The position numbers and the translations under genes were made by a program. From Selenobaculum gibii (lineage in GTDB: Bacteria > Bacillota > Negativicutes > ICN-92133), in the NCBI RefSeq assembly GCF_030273445.1, contig NZ_CP120678.1, positions 1,341,501 through 1,405,500 of the forward strand: a DNA stretch of 64,000 nt, read 5' to 3'. The notes below the pieces were generated by a model. The model was not told where the DNA came from. It ran no database searches and saw nothing but the letters and a program-made list of their open reading frames with translations. Shown piece by piece: positions 45,039 through 60,654 of the stretch; position 1 is the first letter of the stretch, and the number at the start of each line of letters is the position of its first letter.

Positions 45039-46268
45039 ATGAAAACCATTAAACATTCCAAAATAATTACTTATTTATTTGCACTAGGTCTAATTTTCAT
45101 GACCATTTCAATAATCGCTAATCCAAAAATAACTTTTGATGCAGCAATTTCTGGGATAAGTTTATGGTGGAACGTAATCTTCCCGTCTTTATTACCTTTC
45201 TTCATTCTTTCGGAACTTCTCATGGGTATTGGAGTTGTAAATGCCATAGGCGTTTTTCTTGAACCCTTAATGCGTCCCGTTTTTAATGTTCCTGGTGTAG
45301 GTGCTTTTGCTTTATCTCTTGGCCTTGCTTCAGGATATCCAATGGATGCAGTTATAACTAGTAAGTTGAAAAAAAACAACCTTTGTTCTTCTATTGAAGC
45401 GGAACGATTACTTGCATTCAGTAATACAGCTGATCCATTATTTATCTTTGGCGCAGTGTCCGTTGGAATGTTCCAGTCTCCTGAGTTAGGCATGATTTTA
45501 GCTTTGGCCCACTACTCTTCTAGTATAATTATAGGATTCATTTATAGTTTCTATGGAAGAAATAAAGATCAAATTTCTTCCTGCGTAAAACCCTATAATA
45601 ATATTTTTAAACGTGCATTTCAGGAATTATATTTATATAGACAAAAAGACCCCCGTTCCATTCCTAACCTACTAGGAGACGCTATTAGAACTTCAATGAA
45701 CACTATCTTATTAATCGGTGGATTTATTGTTATTTTCTCAGTTTGTCTGAATTTATTATCAGCAATTGGTATAATCGCATATTTAAATCTTTTCTTTGCT
45801 AATCTTTTGACAATTATAGGATTTAGTGATACTCTTTCACAAGCATTAAGCTTTGGATTATTCGAAATAGATTTAGGTGTATTAGCTGCAAGTCAAGCAG
45901 ATTGCCCTTTAACTGAAAAAGTTGCAATTGCAAGCGCAATTATTGCTTGGAGTGGTTTATCTGTACATGGGCAAGTAGCAAGTATTGCAACTGAATCCCA
46001 CATTCGAATGTTTCCCTATATAATCTCTCGTTTTTTACATGCAATTTTCTCAGCAATTCTAGTTCTTTTACTTATGGGACCAGCAAATTTCATCACTCAA
46101 CTGTTTTTATCCCCTGATATTACCGTTACAAAATCAATTCATTCATTGTCAGATTGGATCTTAAGAATAGATTTTATCGCATACCAAACATGTCTTATAT
46201 TGCTTGTTATGTTCATCTTATCTATGTTTTTTTTATTTTTAAAAAAGTTATTTTATATTCAGAAATAA
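45039..46268 (+). CDS. ylbJ: Sporulation integral membrane protein YlbJ
   Basis: Polytopic membrane protein of 409 residues with about eight to ten hydrophobic segments and nucleoside-recognition (gate) type sequence such as SGYPMDAVITSKL and ALSLGLASGYP. In B. subtilis ylbJ is under sigma-E and is needed for heat-resistant spores. GAGGAG precedes the ATG. It is followed by a strong bidirectional terminator. Confidence 0.92.
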   Translation: MKTIKHSKIITYLFALGLIFMTISIIANPKITFDAAISGISLWWNVIFPSLLPFFILSELLMGIGVVNAIGVFLEPLMRPVFNVPGVGAFALSLGLASGYPMDAVITSKLKKNNLCSSIEAERLLAFSNTADPLFIFGAVSVGMFQSPELGMILALAHYSSSIIIGFIYSFYGRNKDQISSCVKPYNNIFKRAFQELYLYRQKDPRSIPNLLGDAIRTSMNTILLIGGFIVIFSVCLNLLSAIGIIAYLNLFFANLLTIIGFSDTLSQALSFGLFEIDLGVLAASQADCPLTEKVAIASAIIAWSGLSVHGQVASIATESHIRMFPYIISRFLHAIFSAILVLLLMGPANFITQLFLSPDITVTKSIHSLSDWILRIDFIAYQTCLILLVMFILSMFFLFLKKLFYIQK

Positions 46269-47869: not shown

Positions 47870-47984
47870 TGTACTCCCTCATATAAAATTATATTTTATA
47901 TTCTAGCATATTTGTTATCATTAGTGAATATTAGCACGTACAAAATACATGTTTAATATACAAGACTTAAAGAAAGGTGATAAA

Positions 47985-49652
47985 GTGAAATCTAAAATTA
48001 TTGCAAGCTTTTCTATTTTTCTTATAATAACCTGCTATTTTTTTTCAACTATTCCTAGTTATAAACTAATGGCACCCACCCCAATTCAATATCAACATAA
48101 AATTTTATTGATTCCATTAGACAGTCGCCCGCCTTGTACAAATTTTGTTATTGACCTAGCTAAAATAGTAAATATTGAAATAATCATTCCACCTGATGAA
48201 ATTCTTGACAATTATAAAACACCCGCAAATCAAATTTTAGTACGACAATGGTTGAAAGATAATATTAAAAATGTAAATTTTGCTATTATATCTACAGACA
48301 TGCTCATTCATGGAGGCCTAATGGCTTCACGCCTTTCCGAGGGCTCAGAGAATGACATAGTTGATACACTTCAGCTATTGCAAGAAATACATAATCAATA
48401 TCCCAGCATAGATTTATATGCCTTTAATATAATTCCTCGTCTGTGGGTTGGCGACAGCGAAGAAACTAAAAAATATCAAACAAGCATTTTAGAATTTTCT
48501 AAATTAAAAGATATTATTTATACCTTTCATAATCCTATTGATATAGAACGACAAAAGGAAGTAGAAGCAAAACTTCCAACGAATATCAAAAATAACTATC
48601 TTACTTTATATGCTGAAAATGAAAAATTGAATAAAGAATTAATAAATTTAACCCAAAAAGGTGTTTTAAAACAACTTCTTATCGGTCAAGATGATGGACA
48701 ATCCTTCGGCATTCCCAATATAATAAAAAGAAATTTACAACATTATTTATGGCAAAAAAACATCGCTGAGAACCAGGTAATTATTACCAGGGGGACCGAT
48801 GAAATTGCCTTAACTATATTAGGGAGTATAAATTCTACACTTCAACATCATCAACCTAAAATTTTTGTACAATACAATGATGAAAAAGCATCAAGTATTG
48901 TAATGCCCTATATGCCACATTCAGTTGCAACTACCGCAAAAGAAAAAATTGAAATTGCTAAAGGAATTCAAACCACTTCTATTGATAGTGCGGATTTTGT
49001 TCTTTACGTTTACATTGGAACTAAAGACAATATGCAGAATCGATATGCTAGTGCACAAGAATTAAAAAAGCTTTTAGAGAGCGGCTACAAAGTCGCGCTA
49101 GTTGATTTAAGTGAAAACTTCGAAGCTTCTGAAACACTTTTTCCTGTGTTAAAGGCTAACCACGTTCCATTAAATCAGTTAATTGCCTACTCCGGATGGA
49201 ATACCACAAGCAATTCTATCGGAACTGCGATTACCCAAGCAACTTTATTTACTGGCAAATTACACAATATCACCAGCGAAAAGGATTTAGCAACCACTTA
49301 TTCGAATCATTTGACATTTTTAACCTCACGTTTCTTAGAAGATTGGTATTATTTAAAATCTTCACATGCGAAAATTGATCATCTTTTAAAAGCACAAAAT
49401 ATTGATGTATACAATTTAAATGATTCTTACAACTTTGCGAACGCACAATTACAAAAAGAAATGTTGCAGCAATCTCGTATTCTATTGAATGACTCCGCTT
49501 ATAGAATTCCAATTAAAATCCAATATAATGATACTTATTTTCTTTTAAAAGTTAAAGATATGAAAATTGATGTAAACTATCCTTGGCCACGAACCTTTGA
49601 AATTGATATAAAACCTTCCTTATCGTTTGTTATTTCCAAAGATATTTCTTGA
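47985..49652 (+). CDS. DUF4127 family exported protein
   Basis: Protein of about 555 residues with an N-terminal signal anchor (KIIASFSIFLIITCYFFST). The body matches DUF4127: LIPLDSRPPCTNFVIDLA, a STDMLIHGGLMASR segment, and later LVDLSENFEASETLFPVL. Function is not known; the family is found near surface or lipoprotein genes in some Bacillota. GTG at 47985 follows AAAGGTGATAAA; an ATG 12 codons upstream lacks an SD. Confidence 0.82.
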   Translation: MKSKIIASFSIFLIITCYFFSTIPSYKLMAPTPIQYQHKILLIPLDSRPPCTNFVIDLAKIVNIEIIIPPDEILDNYKTPANQILVRQWLKDNIKNVNFAIISTDMLIHGGLMASRLSEGSENDIVDTLQLLQEIHNQYPSIDLYAFNIIPRLWVGDSEETKKYQTSILEFSKLKDIIYTFHNPIDIERQKEVEAKLPTNIKNNYLTLYAENEKLNKELINLTQKGVLKQLLIGQDDGQSFGIPNIIKRNLQHYLWQKNIAENQVIITRGTDEIALTILGSINSTLQHHQPKIFVQYNDEKASSIVMPYMPHSVATTAKEKIEIAKGIQTTSIDSADFVLYVYIGTKDNMQNRYASAQELKKLLESGYKVALVDLSENFEASETLFPVLKANHVPLNQLIAYSGWNTTSNSIGTAITQATLFTGKLHNITSEKDLATTYSNHLTFLTSRFLEDWYYLKSSHAKIDHLLKAQNIDVYNLNDSYNFANAQLQKEMLQQSRILLNDSAYRIPIKIQYNDTYFLLKVKDMKIDVNYPWPRTFEIDIKPSLSFVISKDIS

Positions 49653-49797: not shown

Positions 49798-49831
49798 AAA
49801 AAAAGAGGAGCTTTCTTAGCTCCTCTTTTTT
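49798..49831. terminator. Bidirectional terminator after tRNA-Gln
   Basis: AAAAAAGAGGAGCT and its complement with a short loop and T-runs on both strands; serves the tRNA on the plus strand and the EF-G-like gene on the minus strand. Confidence 0.92.
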
Positions 49832-51905
49832 ATATATCACTTTTTTCATTTTTTTTAGATTCAATGATATCTTTTGCCAATTTATTAGGTAATTCTTCAT
49901 AATGTGAAAACTCCATATCAAAGGTTCCTCTGCCTTGCGATATCGATCGTAAATCTGTAGCATACCTTGCTAATTCACTTAATGGAGCTTGAGCTCTCAC
50001 CAATCCCATTCCTTTGGTTATGGTTTCCATCCCTAAGATTCTACCTCTGCTAGCATTTAAATTACCAATAATATCTCCCATATAATATTCTGGAATACTA
50101 ATTGTTAAATTATAGATTGGCTCAAGCAATATAGGTTTTGCTAACATCGCTCCTTTTTTAATCGCCAATGCACTTGCCATCTTGAATGCAATTTCGGACG
50201 AATCCACGTTATGATATGATCCATCACATAAATTGACTTTGATATCAACCATAGGATATCCAGCTAAAATACCCGCTTCTAAAGTTTCTCGAACCCCTTT
50301 TTCAACCGCCGGAACATATTGTTTAGGTATAGCTCCACCAAAGAGCGTTTCGATAAACTCAAACCCGCTTCCAGCTGGCAAAGGTTCTATTTGCAGCCAT
50401 ACATGCCCATATTGTCCATGGCCACCGCTTTGTTTTTTATGCTTACCTTCTACTTTCTCACTAGCAGTTATCGTCTCTCTATAGGGAATCTTGCGTTCTT
50501 TCAACAAAACTTCAACCCCAAATTTTCTTTTTATTTTATCTAAAATAATTTCTAAATGTAATTCTCCGATACCACTGATTAATAATTGTTTTGTTTCAGA
50601 ATCTTTAAAAACTTTTATTGTCAAATCTTCGTCGGTAATACGCCCTAATGCATTGCTAATCTTATCCTCATCGCCCTTGTTTTTCGCCTGTATCCCCATC
50701 GTAAACATCGGTTTAGGAAATTCAATTGGCTCATATAAAATGGTATTTTCTTTGCTGCAAAGTGTATCTCCAGTCGCTACATATTGCATTTTTGCTATGA
50801 CAACAATATCTCCTGCATGAGCTATTTCCATAGCCTCCTGTTGTTTTCCTCGCATCGTAAAAAATGCATTTATCTTCTCCGATTTTTCCTTATCAACATT
50901 ATATAAAGTCATATCTGCTTTTAATACGCCTGAAATTATTTTTAAATAATTTAGCCTACCGACAAATGGATCTGCTGTTGTTTTAAAAACAATAGCGGAG
51001 AATTCATCTGTAGCAACCCGTTCAATAATTTCTCCTGTATCGGGAATAATTCCCATCACCGGTTTGAGCATTGGTTCTGGCATATAATTGATAATGGAAT
51101 TTAACAGCTTACGAGACCCAATATTCTTTAAGGATGACCCACATAAAACAGGAAATATTTTTGCCGCCTGAATTCCCTCCGCTAAAGCAATAGAAACTTC
51201 TTCTTCTGATATCTCTTTTCCCTCTAAATACTTATCTAATAAATCATTATTAAATTCGGCTACGACTTCAATTAATTGCTGTCTAGCGTCCTCTACTTCT
51301 TTTTGCAAAAATTCTGGTATTTCTCCTTCTACAGGCACATTGTTACTCGTAACAAACCGAGTATTCATCGATAATAAATCTACAACCCCATGAAAGGCTT
51401 CTTCAGAACCAATCGGAATCTGAATAGGCACTACGCCTGTTCCAAATTTTACTTTTAACTGTTCGACTACAGCATAAAAATCTGCATGTTCCCGATCCAT
51501 TTTATTAATAAAAAAAGCCCTTGGCAATTTAATTGCACTAGCATACTCCCAAACCTTTTCCGTCTCAACTTCTATTCCCGCAGGAGCACATAGCACAATT
51601 AAAGCACTATCAGCCGCCTGCATTACAGATTTCACTTCGCCTATGAAATCAGGATAACCAGGAGTATCAATAAAATTCAATTTATAACCTTGCCATTCAC
51701 AAGAGGCTAGAGTACTACTTATACTCATCTTTCTTTTTACTTCTTCAACCTCAAAATCAATGAGTGACGTCCCTTCATCTACTTTACCTATTCTTTTTGC
51801 ATAGCCAGCATTAAAAATCAAAGTATCTGTCAGTGAAGTTTTCCCTGATTTTCCGTGTCCCACAATTGCAATGTTTCTAATAAGATTTCTTGTATACTCT
51901 TTCAT
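49830..51905 (-). CDS. EF-G-like translational GTPase
   Basis: A 691-residue paralogue of elongation factor G with all five domains (G domain with FIDTPGYPDF near 75-84 and NKMD near 130, then domains II-V with SGGHGQYGHVW in domain IV). The P-loop is GHGKSGKTS rather than the AHIDAGKTT of canonical EF-G, so this is the divergent second EF-G class (FusA2-like), whose role is not settled: ribosome recycling or stress translation are candidates. It should not be taken as the main fusA. A short leader ORF lies immediately upstream and may couple its translation. Confidence 0.88.
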   Translation of the reverse strand: MKEYTRNLIRNIAIVGHGKSGKTSLTDTLIFNAGYAKRIGKVDEGTSLIDFEVEEVKRKMSISSTLASCEWQGYKLNFIDTPGYPDFIGEVKSVMQAADSALIVLCAPAGIEVETEKVWEYASAIKLPRAFFINKMDREHADFYAVVEQLKVKFGTGVVPIQIPIGSEEAFHGVVDLLSMNTRFVTSNNVPVEGEIPEFLQKEVEDARQQLIEVVAEFNNDLLDKYLEGKEISEEEVSIALAEGIQAAKIFPVLCGSSLKNIGSRKLLNSIINYMPEPMLKPVMGIIPDTGEIIERVATDEFSAIVFKTTADPFVGRLNYLKIISGVLKADMTLYNVDKEKSEKINAFFTMRGKQQEAMEIAHAGDIVVIAKMQYVATGDTLCSKENTILYEPIEFPKPMFTMGIQAKNKGDEDKISNALGRITDEDLTIKVFKDSETKQLLISGIGELHLEIILDKIKRKFGVEVLLKERKIPYRETITASEKVEGKHKKQSGGHGQYGHVWLQIEPLPAGSGFEFIETLFGGAIPKQYVPAVEKGVRETLEAGILAGYPMVDIKVNLCDGSYHNVDSSEIAFKMASALAIKKGAMLAKPILLEPIYNLTISIPEYYMGDIIGNLNASRGRILGMETITKGMGLVRAQAPLSELARYATDLRSISQGRGTFDMEFSHYEELPNKLAKDIIESKKNEKSDI

Positions 51906-51976: not shown

Positions 51977-52012
51977 GCCATTCTCCTTTTTTAAAATTGA
52001 TTTTTCTAAAAA

Positions 52013-52073
52013 TTAAACCGTCCTAAATCATATAAATTATTTAAAGTAATTTATATGATCTAGGACGGTTTAA
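52013..52073 (-). terminator. 27-bp hairpin after the spoVM candidate
   Basis: Arms of 27 bases (TTAAACCGTCC... and complement) with one mismatch and a 7-nt loop. On the minus strand it follows the spoVM stop by seven bases and is trailed by TTTTTAG. It leaves only about 35 bases before the EF-G-like leader SD, so it may also act in controlling that gene. Confidence 0.75.
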
Positions 52074-52080
52074 TAAGTAA

Positions 52081-52161
52081 TTATTTATTTTTACTGATGA
52101 CACGTATAACACTTCGCAATGGTTTTGGCACAGAAAAAACATAAATAGAAACCGCTTTCAC
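52081..52161 (-). CDS. spoVM: SpoVM-like 26-residue peptide
   Basis: A 26-codon GTG ORF with a strong AGGAGGGG SD. Residues 12-22 (PKPLRSVIRVI) align with 9-19 of B. subtilis SpoVM (PKFLGGIVRAM), sharing the functionally important Pro, the following Lys, Leu and Arg at matching positions; total length is identical at 26 residues. SpoVM is an amphipathic helix that marks the convex forespore membrane and recruits SpoIVA, which is encoded at 59063-60541. The N-terminal part (AVSIYVFSV) is more divergent. A sigma-E-like promoter and a private terminator flank it. Too small for most gene finders. Confidence 0.75.
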   Translation of the reverse strand: MKAVSIYVFSVPKPLRSVIRVISKNK

Positions 52162-52193
52162 AAAAACCCCTCCTATGATAATCCATCTACATT

Positions 52194-52222
52194 ACCATAT
52201 GTATCACAGAAGAATTTTGTGA
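52194..52222 (-). promoter_or_regulatory. Possible sigma-E or sigma-K promoter of spoVM
   Basis: TCACAAA, 14-bp spacer, CATATGGT on the minus strand, compared with sigma-E consensus KMATATT and CATACAHT: five of seven and six of eight. CATATGGTA also fits the sigma-K -10 CATANNNTA. It ends about 33 bases before the spoVM start. Confidence 0.35.
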
Positions 52223-52225
52223 CAA

Positions 52226-52720
52226 TTAAAGTTCTTCATAACGCATCAACACAAAACACAAATCAGATAATCTGTTTAAATAGATTGTTACATATTTCGA
52301 TACCGCTTCGTGATGATGTAAAGTAAGAACTCTGCGCTCAGCTTTTCTAATCGTAGTTCGCGCTATATCTAAAGCAGCGCCAGCGGACGTATCTCCAGGC
52401 GTAATAAAAGCAGTTAACGGCGGTAATTTTTTCTCAAAATTATCAATTATACTTTCAATATCATCAATATGTTTTCGGGTAATATATTCTTTAGAAGATT
52501 TGCTTGCCAATTCAGCCATTAATAACATACTAATTTTTTGTATACTATGAATTTGCTCAATTACCTCTTCCTTCTTCGCAAAAGCTCTAGCTAACCCTAA
52601 AAAAGAATTTGCTTCATCAACTGAACCATATGCCTCTACTCGTATTGAATCTTTATCAACACGTTCACCTGTAAAAAGCCCTGTAGTTCCGTTATCGCCA
52701 GTTTTTGTATAAACACCCAT
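52226..52720 (-). CDS. pduO: Cob(I)alamin adenosyltransferase, PduO type
   Basis: Adenosylates cob(I)alamin using ATP. The 164 residues show VYTKTGDNGTTGLFTGERV at the N terminus, the family ATP motif, and RTTIRKAERRVLTL near 122-135 with the conserved Arg. No cobalamin-synthesis genes are nearby, so it may serve salvage or a B12 enzyme elsewhere. It is 15 nt after ndk. Confidence 0.94.
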   Translation of the reverse strand: MGVYTKTGDNGTTGLFTGERVDKDSIRVEAYGSVDEANSFLGLARAFAKKEEVIEQIHSIQKISMLLMAELASKSSKEYITRKHIDDIESIIDNFEKKLPPLTAFITPGDTSAGAALDIARTTIRKAERRVLTLHHHEAVSKYVTIYLNRLSDLCFVLMRYEEL

Positions 52721-52734
52721 AATATCATCTCCAT

Positions 52735-53157
52735 TTAAAGATTATACATTAATTCATCGGCTAGAAAAAATAAATTGATTTCCCGTCGCGCATTTTCAAT
52801 ACAATCCGATGCATGCACAGCATTTAAAGTACTATCTGTAGCAAATTTAGCTCGAATTGTATTAGGTTCTGCATTTACTGGATTTGTGGCACCATTAATT
52901 TTTCTTACCTCATTGATTGCATTTTCCCCACTTAAAACTAATGCAACTAATGGACCTGAAATCATAAAATCAACAAGTTTAGCATAATAAGGTTTACCAA
53001 TATGTTCAGCATAATGTTTTGCAGCCAACTCTTTTGTCATCTTCAACATTTTTAAAGCTTCAATTTTCAAACCAGCTTTTTCGTATTCACTTAAAATAAC
53101 CCCTATTGAATTCATTTTCACAACATCCGGCTTTATTAAAACAAGTGTATGTTCCAT
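52735..53157 (-). CDS. ndk: Nucleoside diphosphate kinase
   Basis: Equalises NTP pools. The 140 residues start with HTLVLIKPD and have the phospho-histidine in NAVHASD near 118-124, with RKINGATNP-type sequence near 90-98 (here RKINGATNPVNA). Confidence 0.97.
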   Translation of the reverse strand: MEHTLVLIKPDVVKMNSIGVILSEYEKAGLKIEALKMLKMTKELAAKHYAEHIGKPYYAKLVDFMISGPLVALVLSGENAINEVRKINGATNPVNAEPNTIRAKFATDSTLNAVHASDCIENARREINLFFLADELMYNL

Positions 53158-53169
53158 TTGTATGACTCC

Positions 53170-53685
53170 TTATTTTATGTATTCTTGTGCTATATCATAA
53201 TAATGCATAGCCGATTTTTTTATATCTGCTATTTCTTTTTCACTTAATTGACGAACCACTTTCCCTGGAATTCCCATAACCATCGAATTTGGTGGTATAA
53301 CCTTTCCTTCTGTTACTACACTTCCTGCTGCAATTATAGAATTTTCACCAATTTTACAATAACCGAGTAAAACTGCTCCCATACCAATTAGACAATTATT
53401 CTCTATTGTGCATCCATGTACAATTGCCCCATGCCCAACAGTTACATAATCTCCAATAAGGGCTGGGCAATCACTCATTACATGCACTGTACAATTATCT
53501 TGAATATTAGTATATTTTCCAACCTGAATTTTTTCTATATCGCCACGTAGCACAGAATTAAACCAAATATTTGCCCCTTCTTCAACTTTGACAGCACCAA
53601 TAATAGCAACACCCTCTGATATATATACACTTGAATCAATTTGAGGTGTTACCCCTTTATACGAAATAATGTTTTTCTTATTCAA
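53170..53685 (-). CDS. Gamma-carbonic-anhydrase-like protein
   Basis: Left-handed beta-helix hexapeptide protein of about 171 residues (PaaY/YrdA type). Hallmarks are NIWFNSVLRGDIEKI, VGHGAIVHGCTIENN with two potential metal His, and a final GIPGKVVRQLS. Three His in the correct spacing (near 80, 85) make a metal site likely, but many relatives are not active anhydrases. I start at TTG 53685, eight bases after AGGAG; an in-frame TTG three codons earlier abuts that SD. Confidence 0.9.
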   Translation of the reverse strand: MNKKNIISYKGVTPQIDSSVYISEGVAIIGAVKVEEGANIWFNSVLRGDIEKIQVGKYTNIQDNCTVHVMSDCPALIGDYVTVGHGAIVHGCTIENNCLIGMGAVLLGYCKIGENSIIAAGSVVTEGKVIPPNSMVMGIPGKVVRQLSEKEIADIKKSAMHYYDIAQEYIK

Positions 53686-53720
53686 ATAAAACAACTCCTA
53701 ATTTAAATAATCTATTTTCT

Positions 53721-59062: not shown

Positions 59063-60541
59063 TTAAAAAATAATACAAATTAGACCGCCGCTTCCATCAT
59101 TTACAATACGTGTTAGTGCATCTCTTAATTTATTTTGTGCATTTTCAGGCATACAAGATAATTTATTTTGAATTCCTTCACGAACTAAAGAATTTAACGA
59201 CTTACCAAATAAATTTGTACGCCAAATTCTTTCTGGCTCTCCTTCAAATTCTTTCATCAGATATTGAATCAATTCTTCACTTTGTTTTTCAGTACCTAAA
59301 ATAGGCGCAATTTCTGCCTGTACATCCGTTCTTATAATATGCAATGATGGCGCAGTAGCTTTTAATCTTACCCCAAACTTACTGCCCGTTCGAATAATTT
59401 CTGGTTCTTCCAGCACCATTTCATCCACCTGTGGTGCAACAACAGCATATCCTTTTTCTTTTACCATTTCTAACGCATCTGATAACTTATCATACTCGCG
59501 TTTTGCAACAGACAAGTCTTGCATAATTCTTAGCAAATGATGTTCACCACTAATTGTAAATCCTGTTAATTCTTCAATAACTTGATAGAATAAATCGCCA
59601 CGTGTCATCACTTCAATTGTTGCTACTCCACATCCTAAATCCATATCCTGCAAAACTACTTCAGAAACAAATTCAGATTCATTCAGAGAATCTATAGCTG
59701 CATCAATATCACGCAATCTATGAATATCTTGTACCACACCTTCAACAATCCCAGTAAAATTTCGTTTTAGCCAATAATCTTCCATTAATTCATCAATCCA
59801 TTTTGGCAATGAAACATTTACTTCTTTCACAGGGAATTCATATAAAACTTCTTGTAAAATTGCATAAATATCATCACTATTTAATTTTGCACAATCTACT
59901 GGAATCACTGGAACATTATATTTTTCCTCTAACGACAACACAAGTTCCTGTGTATCAGCCGCTAATGGCTTATTCGTGTTTATAATTACTAAAAAAGGTT
60001 TTTCTAGCTCTTTCAATTCATTAATTACACGTTCTTCTGCCGCAAGATATTGTTGCCTAGGTAAATCAGTTACTGTTCCATCTGTGCTTATCACCAAGCC
60101 AATCGTTGAATGCTCTGTTATTACTTTCTTCGTTCCAATTTCCGCAGCTTCTTGAAACGGAATTTCTTCCTCAAACCAAGGAGTTAATACCATCCTTGGT
60201 TCATCTTGTTCTGCATATCCTAAAGCTCCTTCTACAGTATATCCTACGCAATCAACCATGCGTACTCGGACCGAAACATTTTCTTTTATATTAATTTCTA
60301 CTGCTTCATTTGGAATAAATTTAGGCTCTGTCGTCATAATAGTTTTTCCAGCTGCACTTTGTGGTAATTCATCTTTTGCTCTTTCTTGCTCATATGGATC
60401 AATAATATTAGGCAATATAAGTGTTTCCATAAATTTTTTAATAAAAGTTGATTTTCCTGTACGTACTGGACCTACTACCCCAATATAAATATCACCGCCA
60501 GTACGCTCAGCGATATCTCTAAACAAATCAAATTTCTCCAT
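59063..60541 (-). CDS. spoIVA: Stage IV sporulation protein A
   Basis: Spore-coat morphogenetic ATPase that polymerises on the forespore surface, anchored by SpoVM. The 492 residues equal the B. subtilis length. The P-loop is GVVGPVRTGKSTF near 21-33, with MVDCVGYTVEGALG near 98-111 and the conserved C-terminal tail. The ATG at 60541 has AGGGAGG; an ORF start nine codons earlier would cover it. It is flanked by terminators on both sides, so it is a single-gene unit. Confidence 0.97.
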   Translation of the reverse strand: MEKFDLFRDIAERTGGDIYIGVVGPVRTGKSTFIKKFMETLILPNIIDPYEQERAKDELPQSAAGKTIMTTEPKFIPNEAVEINIKENVSVRVRMVDCVGYTVEGALGYAEQDEPRMVLTPWFEEEIPFQEAAEIGTKKVITEHSTIGLVISTDGTVTDLPRQQYLAAEERVINELKELEKPFLVIINTNKPLAADTQELVLSLEEKYNVPVIPVDCAKLNSDDIYAILQEVLYEFPVKEVNVSLPKWIDELMEDYWLKRNFTGIVEGVVQDIHRLRDIDAAIDSLNESEFVSEVVLQDMDLGCGVATIEVMTRGDLFYQVIEELTGFTISGEHHLLRIMQDLSVAKREYDKLSDALEMVKEKGYAVVAPQVDEMVLEEPEIIRTGSKFGVRLKATAPSLHIIRTDVQAEIAPILGTEKQSEELIQYLMKEFEGEPERIWRTNLFGKSLNSLVREGIQNKLSCMPENAQNKLRDALTRIVNDGSGGLICIIF

Positions 60542-60607: not shown

Positions 60608-60634
60608 AGTGCATTAATCACTAATAATATATGA
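60608..60634 (-). promoter_or_regulatory. Possible sigma-E promoter for spoIVA
   Basis: TCATATA, 12-bp spacer, AATGCACT on the minus strand, against KMATATT and CATACAHT. Hexamers match moderately (six of seven, six of eight) but the spacer is one or two bases short. Offered as a candidate because spoIVA is sigma-E controlled in B. subtilis. Confidence 0.28.
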
Positions 60635-60654
60635 CACTACGTCCAATATATTAC

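Follow-up and report, generated by a model that had tools for sequence, protein, structure and literature searches.

The Negativicutes are diderm spore-formers, and sporulation has been connected with their outer membrane. The closest described counterpart of the gene reported here is spoVM of the Bacilli and Clostridia, which requires sigma-E for its expression in B. subtilis and C. difficile. Its product, a tiny peptide marking the site of spore-coat assembly, binds SpoIVA in both species; in B. subtilis this binding requires Ile6 of SpoVM and Gly486 of SpoIVA, Pro9 of SpoVM forms the kink for positive-curvature recognition, and Lys2 and Ile15 are involved in a cortex checkpoint (PMC5607322). 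A 2012 survey of sporulation genes reported SpoVM in all bacilli but in only some clostridia and asked about distant versions elsewhere; spore-forming Negativicutes were not represented in it by any complete genome (PMC3533761). In the literature covered on SpoVM together with Negativicutes or Veillonellaceae, no SpoVM of the Negativicutes is described.

We analysed a stretch of 64,000 nucleotides from Selenobaculum gibii, referred to below as the window. On its minus strand, a frame of 26 codons plus TAA begins with GTG (52161..52081; VKAVSIYVFSVPKPLRSVIRVISKNK; MKAVSIYVFSVPKPLRSVIRVISKNK), preceded on that strand by the Shine-Dalgarno sequence AGGAGGGG (52167..52174), 5 nt 5' of the start codon. 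The original prediction had reported such a frame with a strong Shine-Dalgarno sequence, without its strand, and the frame was confirmed here. At all 43 loci that we compared, the window included, a G-rich ribosome-binding site stands ahead of the peptide gene. The hairpin that had been noted beside the frame was also found: it resembles a terminator (52012..52074, minus strand, 3' of the gene), has a stem of 28 bp rather than the 27 bp given earlier, continues into a T-rich tail, and folds with -35.8 kcal/mol (z = -10.9). Relatives have CCGCC/GGCGG terminators with stems of roughly 8-12 bp at the same site. The window also encodes SpoIVA, as had been claimed, 7 kb from the peptide gene (59063..60541, minus strand); its 492 aa contain all three SpoIVA Pfam domains (PF09547, PF20438 and PF20439).

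The single peptide was searched against 60 related genomes, and short conserved frames, mostly with a GTG start, were found in about 30 of them. Profile A1 was then built from 24 of these frames and used to search 250 Negativicutes genomes, each at least 90% complete. Matches at E <= 3e-7 were obtained in 42 genomes, the next best match having an E-value of 1.5e-4. SpoIVA is encoded in 40 of the 250 genomes, and the peptide is present in every one of these, but in only two of the 210 genomes without SpoIVA (G029 and G036, fragmented drafts that are 92-93% complete). Three less complete genomes with the peptide encode SpoIVA as well. The 40 genomes with both genes represent 16 families and 22 genera, and because 15 of them lie outside the 60 used for profile building, the co-occurrence is not merely circular. 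Pelosinus fermentans JBW45, Pelosinus propionicus and a Massilibacillus sp. are among the carriers. The match at 1.5e-4 (G207, a genome without SpoIVA) lies in another gene context, lacks a start codon, and was dismissed as chance.

Across relatives, the peptide frame has codon-position entropies of 0.96/0.39/1.41 and a pN of 0.27 against a pS of 0.69, which together indicate purifying selection. Conservation of the reading frame in relatives had been proposed as a test of the original prediction; the frame is kept in more than 40 genomes, which excludes a chance ORF. Members of the family are 23-27 residues long and conform to the pattern M-K-(x)-L-K-[IV]-Y-V-x-S-[VL]-P-x-P-L-R-K-[IL]-[MV]-R-x-F.

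Neither PF08183 nor the NCBIfam SpoVM models matched the window peptide up to E = 10, so the PF08183 search put forward with the original prediction was negative; the same models recognise B. subtilis SpoVM. The Pfam and NCBIfam models likewise gave no SpoVM match for the 24 members of the peptide family. Searches with PF08183 yielded nothing above the cut-off in this genome, and none of the 40 SpoIVA-encoding genomes gave a genuine SpoVM. Matches over the cut-off in three Pelosinus-type genomes (G055, at C1:1448555-1448590, with equivalents in G023 and G035) involve 12 residues inside a 485-aa ORF and were rejected as false positives of a very short model. A profile made from canonical SpoVMs only retrieved a single locus from the 40 genomes (G017, E 0.10); it is too weak for these genes, which have thus been overlooked so far. 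When the new profile was searched against the PDB, where SpoVM is represented by 2mvh and 2mvj, nothing meaningful was returned.

To compare the two families directly, 20 canonical SpoVM sequences were gathered from the phylum Bacillota and their profile was aligned with that of the peptide using hhalign. The match has a probability of 92%, a score of 26.7 and an E-value of 5.4e-7, E-values being approximate for peptides so short, and it runs without gaps over 21 of 26 columns, in which the invariant Tyr and Pro of the two families coincide; among 200 column-shuffled decoys, the highest score was 16.6. The argument for homology is made by several independent lines jointly. A clostridial SpoVM such as MVKIYVFKLPKSLGKIVRKVL matches MKPLKIYVMSVPKPLRKIMQLF residue by residue, which indicates that the Negativicutes peptide begins 2-3 residues earlier. 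The PK-x-L core to which the original prediction had drawn attention does align with SpoVM, but only after a three-residue N-terminal offset that places Pro12 on Pro9, so the identical length of 26 residues, which had been taken as part of the match, is coincidental.

In the reciprocal search, which proved decisive, A1 was run across 299 genomes of the phylum Bacillota and recovered two peptides from outside the Negativicutes, L102 (E 1.1e-5; G356) and L103 (E 8e-4; G318). Both are located in the order rsgA, rpe, small membrane ORF, peptide gene, rpmB on the opposite strand, and yloU-/yloV-like genes, with neighbour names assigned by reading translations. L073, a similar peptide, is accepted by PF08183 at 26.2 bits. 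Since L102 and L103 occupy the classical locus and L073 is recognised by the family model, a continuous chain leads from the Negativicutes peptides through L102/L103 and L073 to canonical SpoVM. The bridging peptides at the classical locus fail PF08183 too, so that the non-match reflects the reach of the model and is not a biological defining feature. A further SpoVM-like peptide of non-Negativicutes Bacillota, L105, is missed by PF08183 in the same way. SpoVM is probably widely under-detected; because existing models have this shortcoming, reported absences of SpoVM merit re-examination with intermediate profiles. The hand-built profile recommended at the outset thus links the peptide to canonical SpoVM through profile comparison and through bridging peptides at the classical locus. 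The SpoVM-like identity first proposed was right in substance, being supported by the profile match, the bridging peptides and the co-occurrence with SpoIVA.

With this alignment, the functionally described residues of SpoVM can be located in the window peptide. Pro12, which is invariant in A1, aligns with Pro9 of B. subtilis SpoVM. Ile6 corresponds to Phe9 (Met, Val or Leu in relatives), Lys2 to Ser5 (Lys or Arg in most relatives) and Ile15 to Val18, and substitutions at these three positions are mostly conservative. The segment after the proline is predicted to be a strongly amphipathic basic helix: the hydrophobic moment calculated from its sequence, KPLRSVIRVISK, is 0.90, a value reached in none of 2000 shuffles, and its net charge is +4, compared with +2 in B. 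subtilis SpoVM. On the side of the partner, the C-terminus of the SpoIVA encoded in the window, NDGSGGLICIIF, is nearly identical and conserves Gly486, the SpoVM-contact residue of B. subtilis.

The peptide gene resides in a conserved neighbourhood, in which the kept order over the 43 loci is gamma-carbonic anhydrase, ndk, pduO, peptide and EF-G-like gene (names assigned by reading sequence). All are on the minus strand in the window: a gamma-carbonic-anhydrase-like protein (53170..53694), ndk (52735..53157), a pduO-type cob(I)alamin adenosyltransferase (52226..52720) and, downstream of the peptide gene, an EF-G-like translation GTPase (49830..51905). The pduO-type gene is the upstream neighbour at 40 of the 43 loci, usually preceded by ndk and the gamma-carbonic-anhydrase gene, and the EF-G-like gene follows within 1.5 kb at 37. 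A 567-aa ORF on the plus strand (47949-49652) also belongs to this neighbourhood; at two other loci (L148 and L155) a homologue follows the EF-G-like gene, and at a third (L009) one comes shortly after the peptide. Further away (45039-46268, plus strand) lies a sporulation gene for a YlbJ-like integral membrane protein, named by reading its sequence. The site between pduO and the EF-G-like gene is common to the class and away from the classical rpe/rpmB site. In this genome no SpoVM-like frame was found beside rpmB or after rpe, where queC-like and queF-like genes stand instead; the stretch concerned (L032 4171-6449) is to the left of the window and replaces the usual spoVM-rpmB segment. Together with the PF08183 result, this leaves no clear spoVM elsewhere in the genome, in keeping with the original prediction.

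A promoter of mother-cell type precedes the peptide gene (52193..52222, minus strand), with a -35 box TCACA (52222-52218) and a -10 box CATATGGTA (52201-52193) separated by 16 nt. The window contains a single copy of the pattern CACA-N16-CATATGGTA (52193-52221), compared with 0.17 expected by chance. The element CATANNNT[AG] is present in 39 of 43 upstream regions of the peptide gene (shuffles: mean 1.9, maximum 6). Among 41 of these regions aligned on it, the -35 box contains CAC or GCA in 36 and is of the AATAT type in none. Upstream of spoIVA in the same genomes, a sigma-E-type promoter, GT[AC]ATATT ... CATATATT, is found in 29 of 31 regions; the copy in the window reads TAATATA ... CATATATT (60624..60653, minus strand). 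Throughout the class, the promoter of spoIVA hardly varies (GT[AC]ATATT ... CATATATTTA; L108-L137 and L147), and it provides a clean sigma-E-type reference for the Negativicutes. Promoters of sigma-E and sigma-K in B. subtilis share the same -10 box and differ at the fourth base of the -35 box, which is T for sigma-E and C for sigma-K (PMC517825). The 'sigma-E-like promoter' of the original prediction was therefore correct as to the mother-cell type but not as to the -35 box, which has C at the discriminating base and is better called sigma-K-like. Genome-wide, the promoter pattern gave 13 sites and its reversed counterpart, used as a control, gave 8, a yield too low for delineating a regulon.

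The peptide belongs to the SpoVM family and very likely serves the same role. We consider it highly probable that the peptide is the spoVM product of the Negativicutes, a divergent and relocated orthologue that would anchor SpoIVA to the forespore membrane; we infer this function from the invariant Pro12, the conserved C-terminus and Gly486 of SpoIVA, and the amphipathic helix, for which such an anchor is the best reading. The peptide would be synthesised by the mother cell in the course of sporulation. Its basic helix after Pro12 would sit in the convex outer membrane of the forespore, while residues before Pro12 (Tyr7 and Phe9, the equivalent of Ile6) would contact the SpoIVA C-terminus around Gly486; SpoIVA would then polymerise on the forespore, where the coat would be assembled. 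The timing of expression perhaps differs from that of classical SpoVM. A possible but doubtful alternative is a SpoVM homologue acting late, transcribed by sigma-K after SpoIVA encasement and stabilising the base of the coat or signalling to the cortex. The two sets of -35 boxes speak for it, CAC/GCA-type in 36 of 41 peptide regions and never AATAT, as against the sigma-E type in 29 of 31 spoIVA regions of the same genomes; a single T or C separates the two promoter classes (PMC517825). C. difficile SpoVM is, moreover, largely dispensable for SpoIVA encasement (PMC5607322). However, sigma-E also reads some sigma-K-type promoters (PMC517825), and the strict co-occurrence with SpoIVA is compatible with either timing. 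That the promoter switched from sigma-E to sigma-K in all spore-formers of the class, the peptide being made after SpoIVA, seems unlikely; if so, SpoIVA must reach the outer forespore membrane without the peptide, and the coat base would be assembled in a different order than in Bacillus.

An independent origin, in which a small amphipathic sporulation peptide converged on a SpoVM-like sequence, is improbable. It would fit a sequence this short, at a different genomic position and missed by the family models, but the profile match far exceeds the shuffled decoys and is ungapped across Y..P..L...R, the peptide's own profile recovers the bridging peptides at the classical locus, and the same genomes contain no second SpoVM. 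Least credible, with a probability close to nil, is that the ORF is spurious or encodes a leader peptide for attenuation of the downstream EF-G-like gene. A short ORF ahead of a strong hairpin and a same-strand gene could suggest the latter; yet amino acids are kept while synonymous sites change, occurrence tracks spoIVA, and the EF-G-like gene is absent within 1.5 kb downstream at 6 of 43 loci. Both variants are ruled out by the phyletic pattern and the codon statistics.

As the SpoVM of the Negativicutes, the peptide answers for this class the question about distant versions that was posed by the 2012 survey (PMC3533761). Its presence in 40 of 40 genomes with SpoIVA makes it a clean marker of sporulation ability. 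The family offers natural variants for work on curvature sensing, and the possible difference in timing is testable.

Compared with the SpoVM of Bacilli and Clostridia (PF08183; NF033436, NF011327), the Negativicutes peptide has a common length of 23-30 residues and a common core, [KR]-[FIV]-Y-x-x-x-[LV]-P-x-x-[LFI]-x-x-[IVLM]-[VIM]-[RKQ], in which an invariant Pro is followed by a predicted basic amphipathic helix; both have a mother-cell-type promoter and a SpoIVA with Gly486 in the same genome. The peptide differs in having 2-3 extra N-terminal residues, a second Pro (P-x-P) in place of Phe11 and Arg16 in place of Gly13 of the B. subtilis protein, a sigma-K-type -35 box, scores below all family cut-offs, and a position moved from rpe/rpmB to between pduO and the EF-G-like gene. 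The bridging peptides L102 and L103, both from genomes that encode SpoIVA, contain YVFRVPR-x-LR-x-[IL]-[IL]-R, close to YVFSVPKPLRSVIR of the window, and are missed by PF08183 as the window peptide is; unlike it, they lack the N-terminal extension and the P-x-P motif and remain at the classical locus, with spoVM between rpe and rpmB. What is new here is a SpoVM that is relocated, N-terminally extended, marked by a P-x-P motif, placed behind a promoter of another class, and not recognised by current models.
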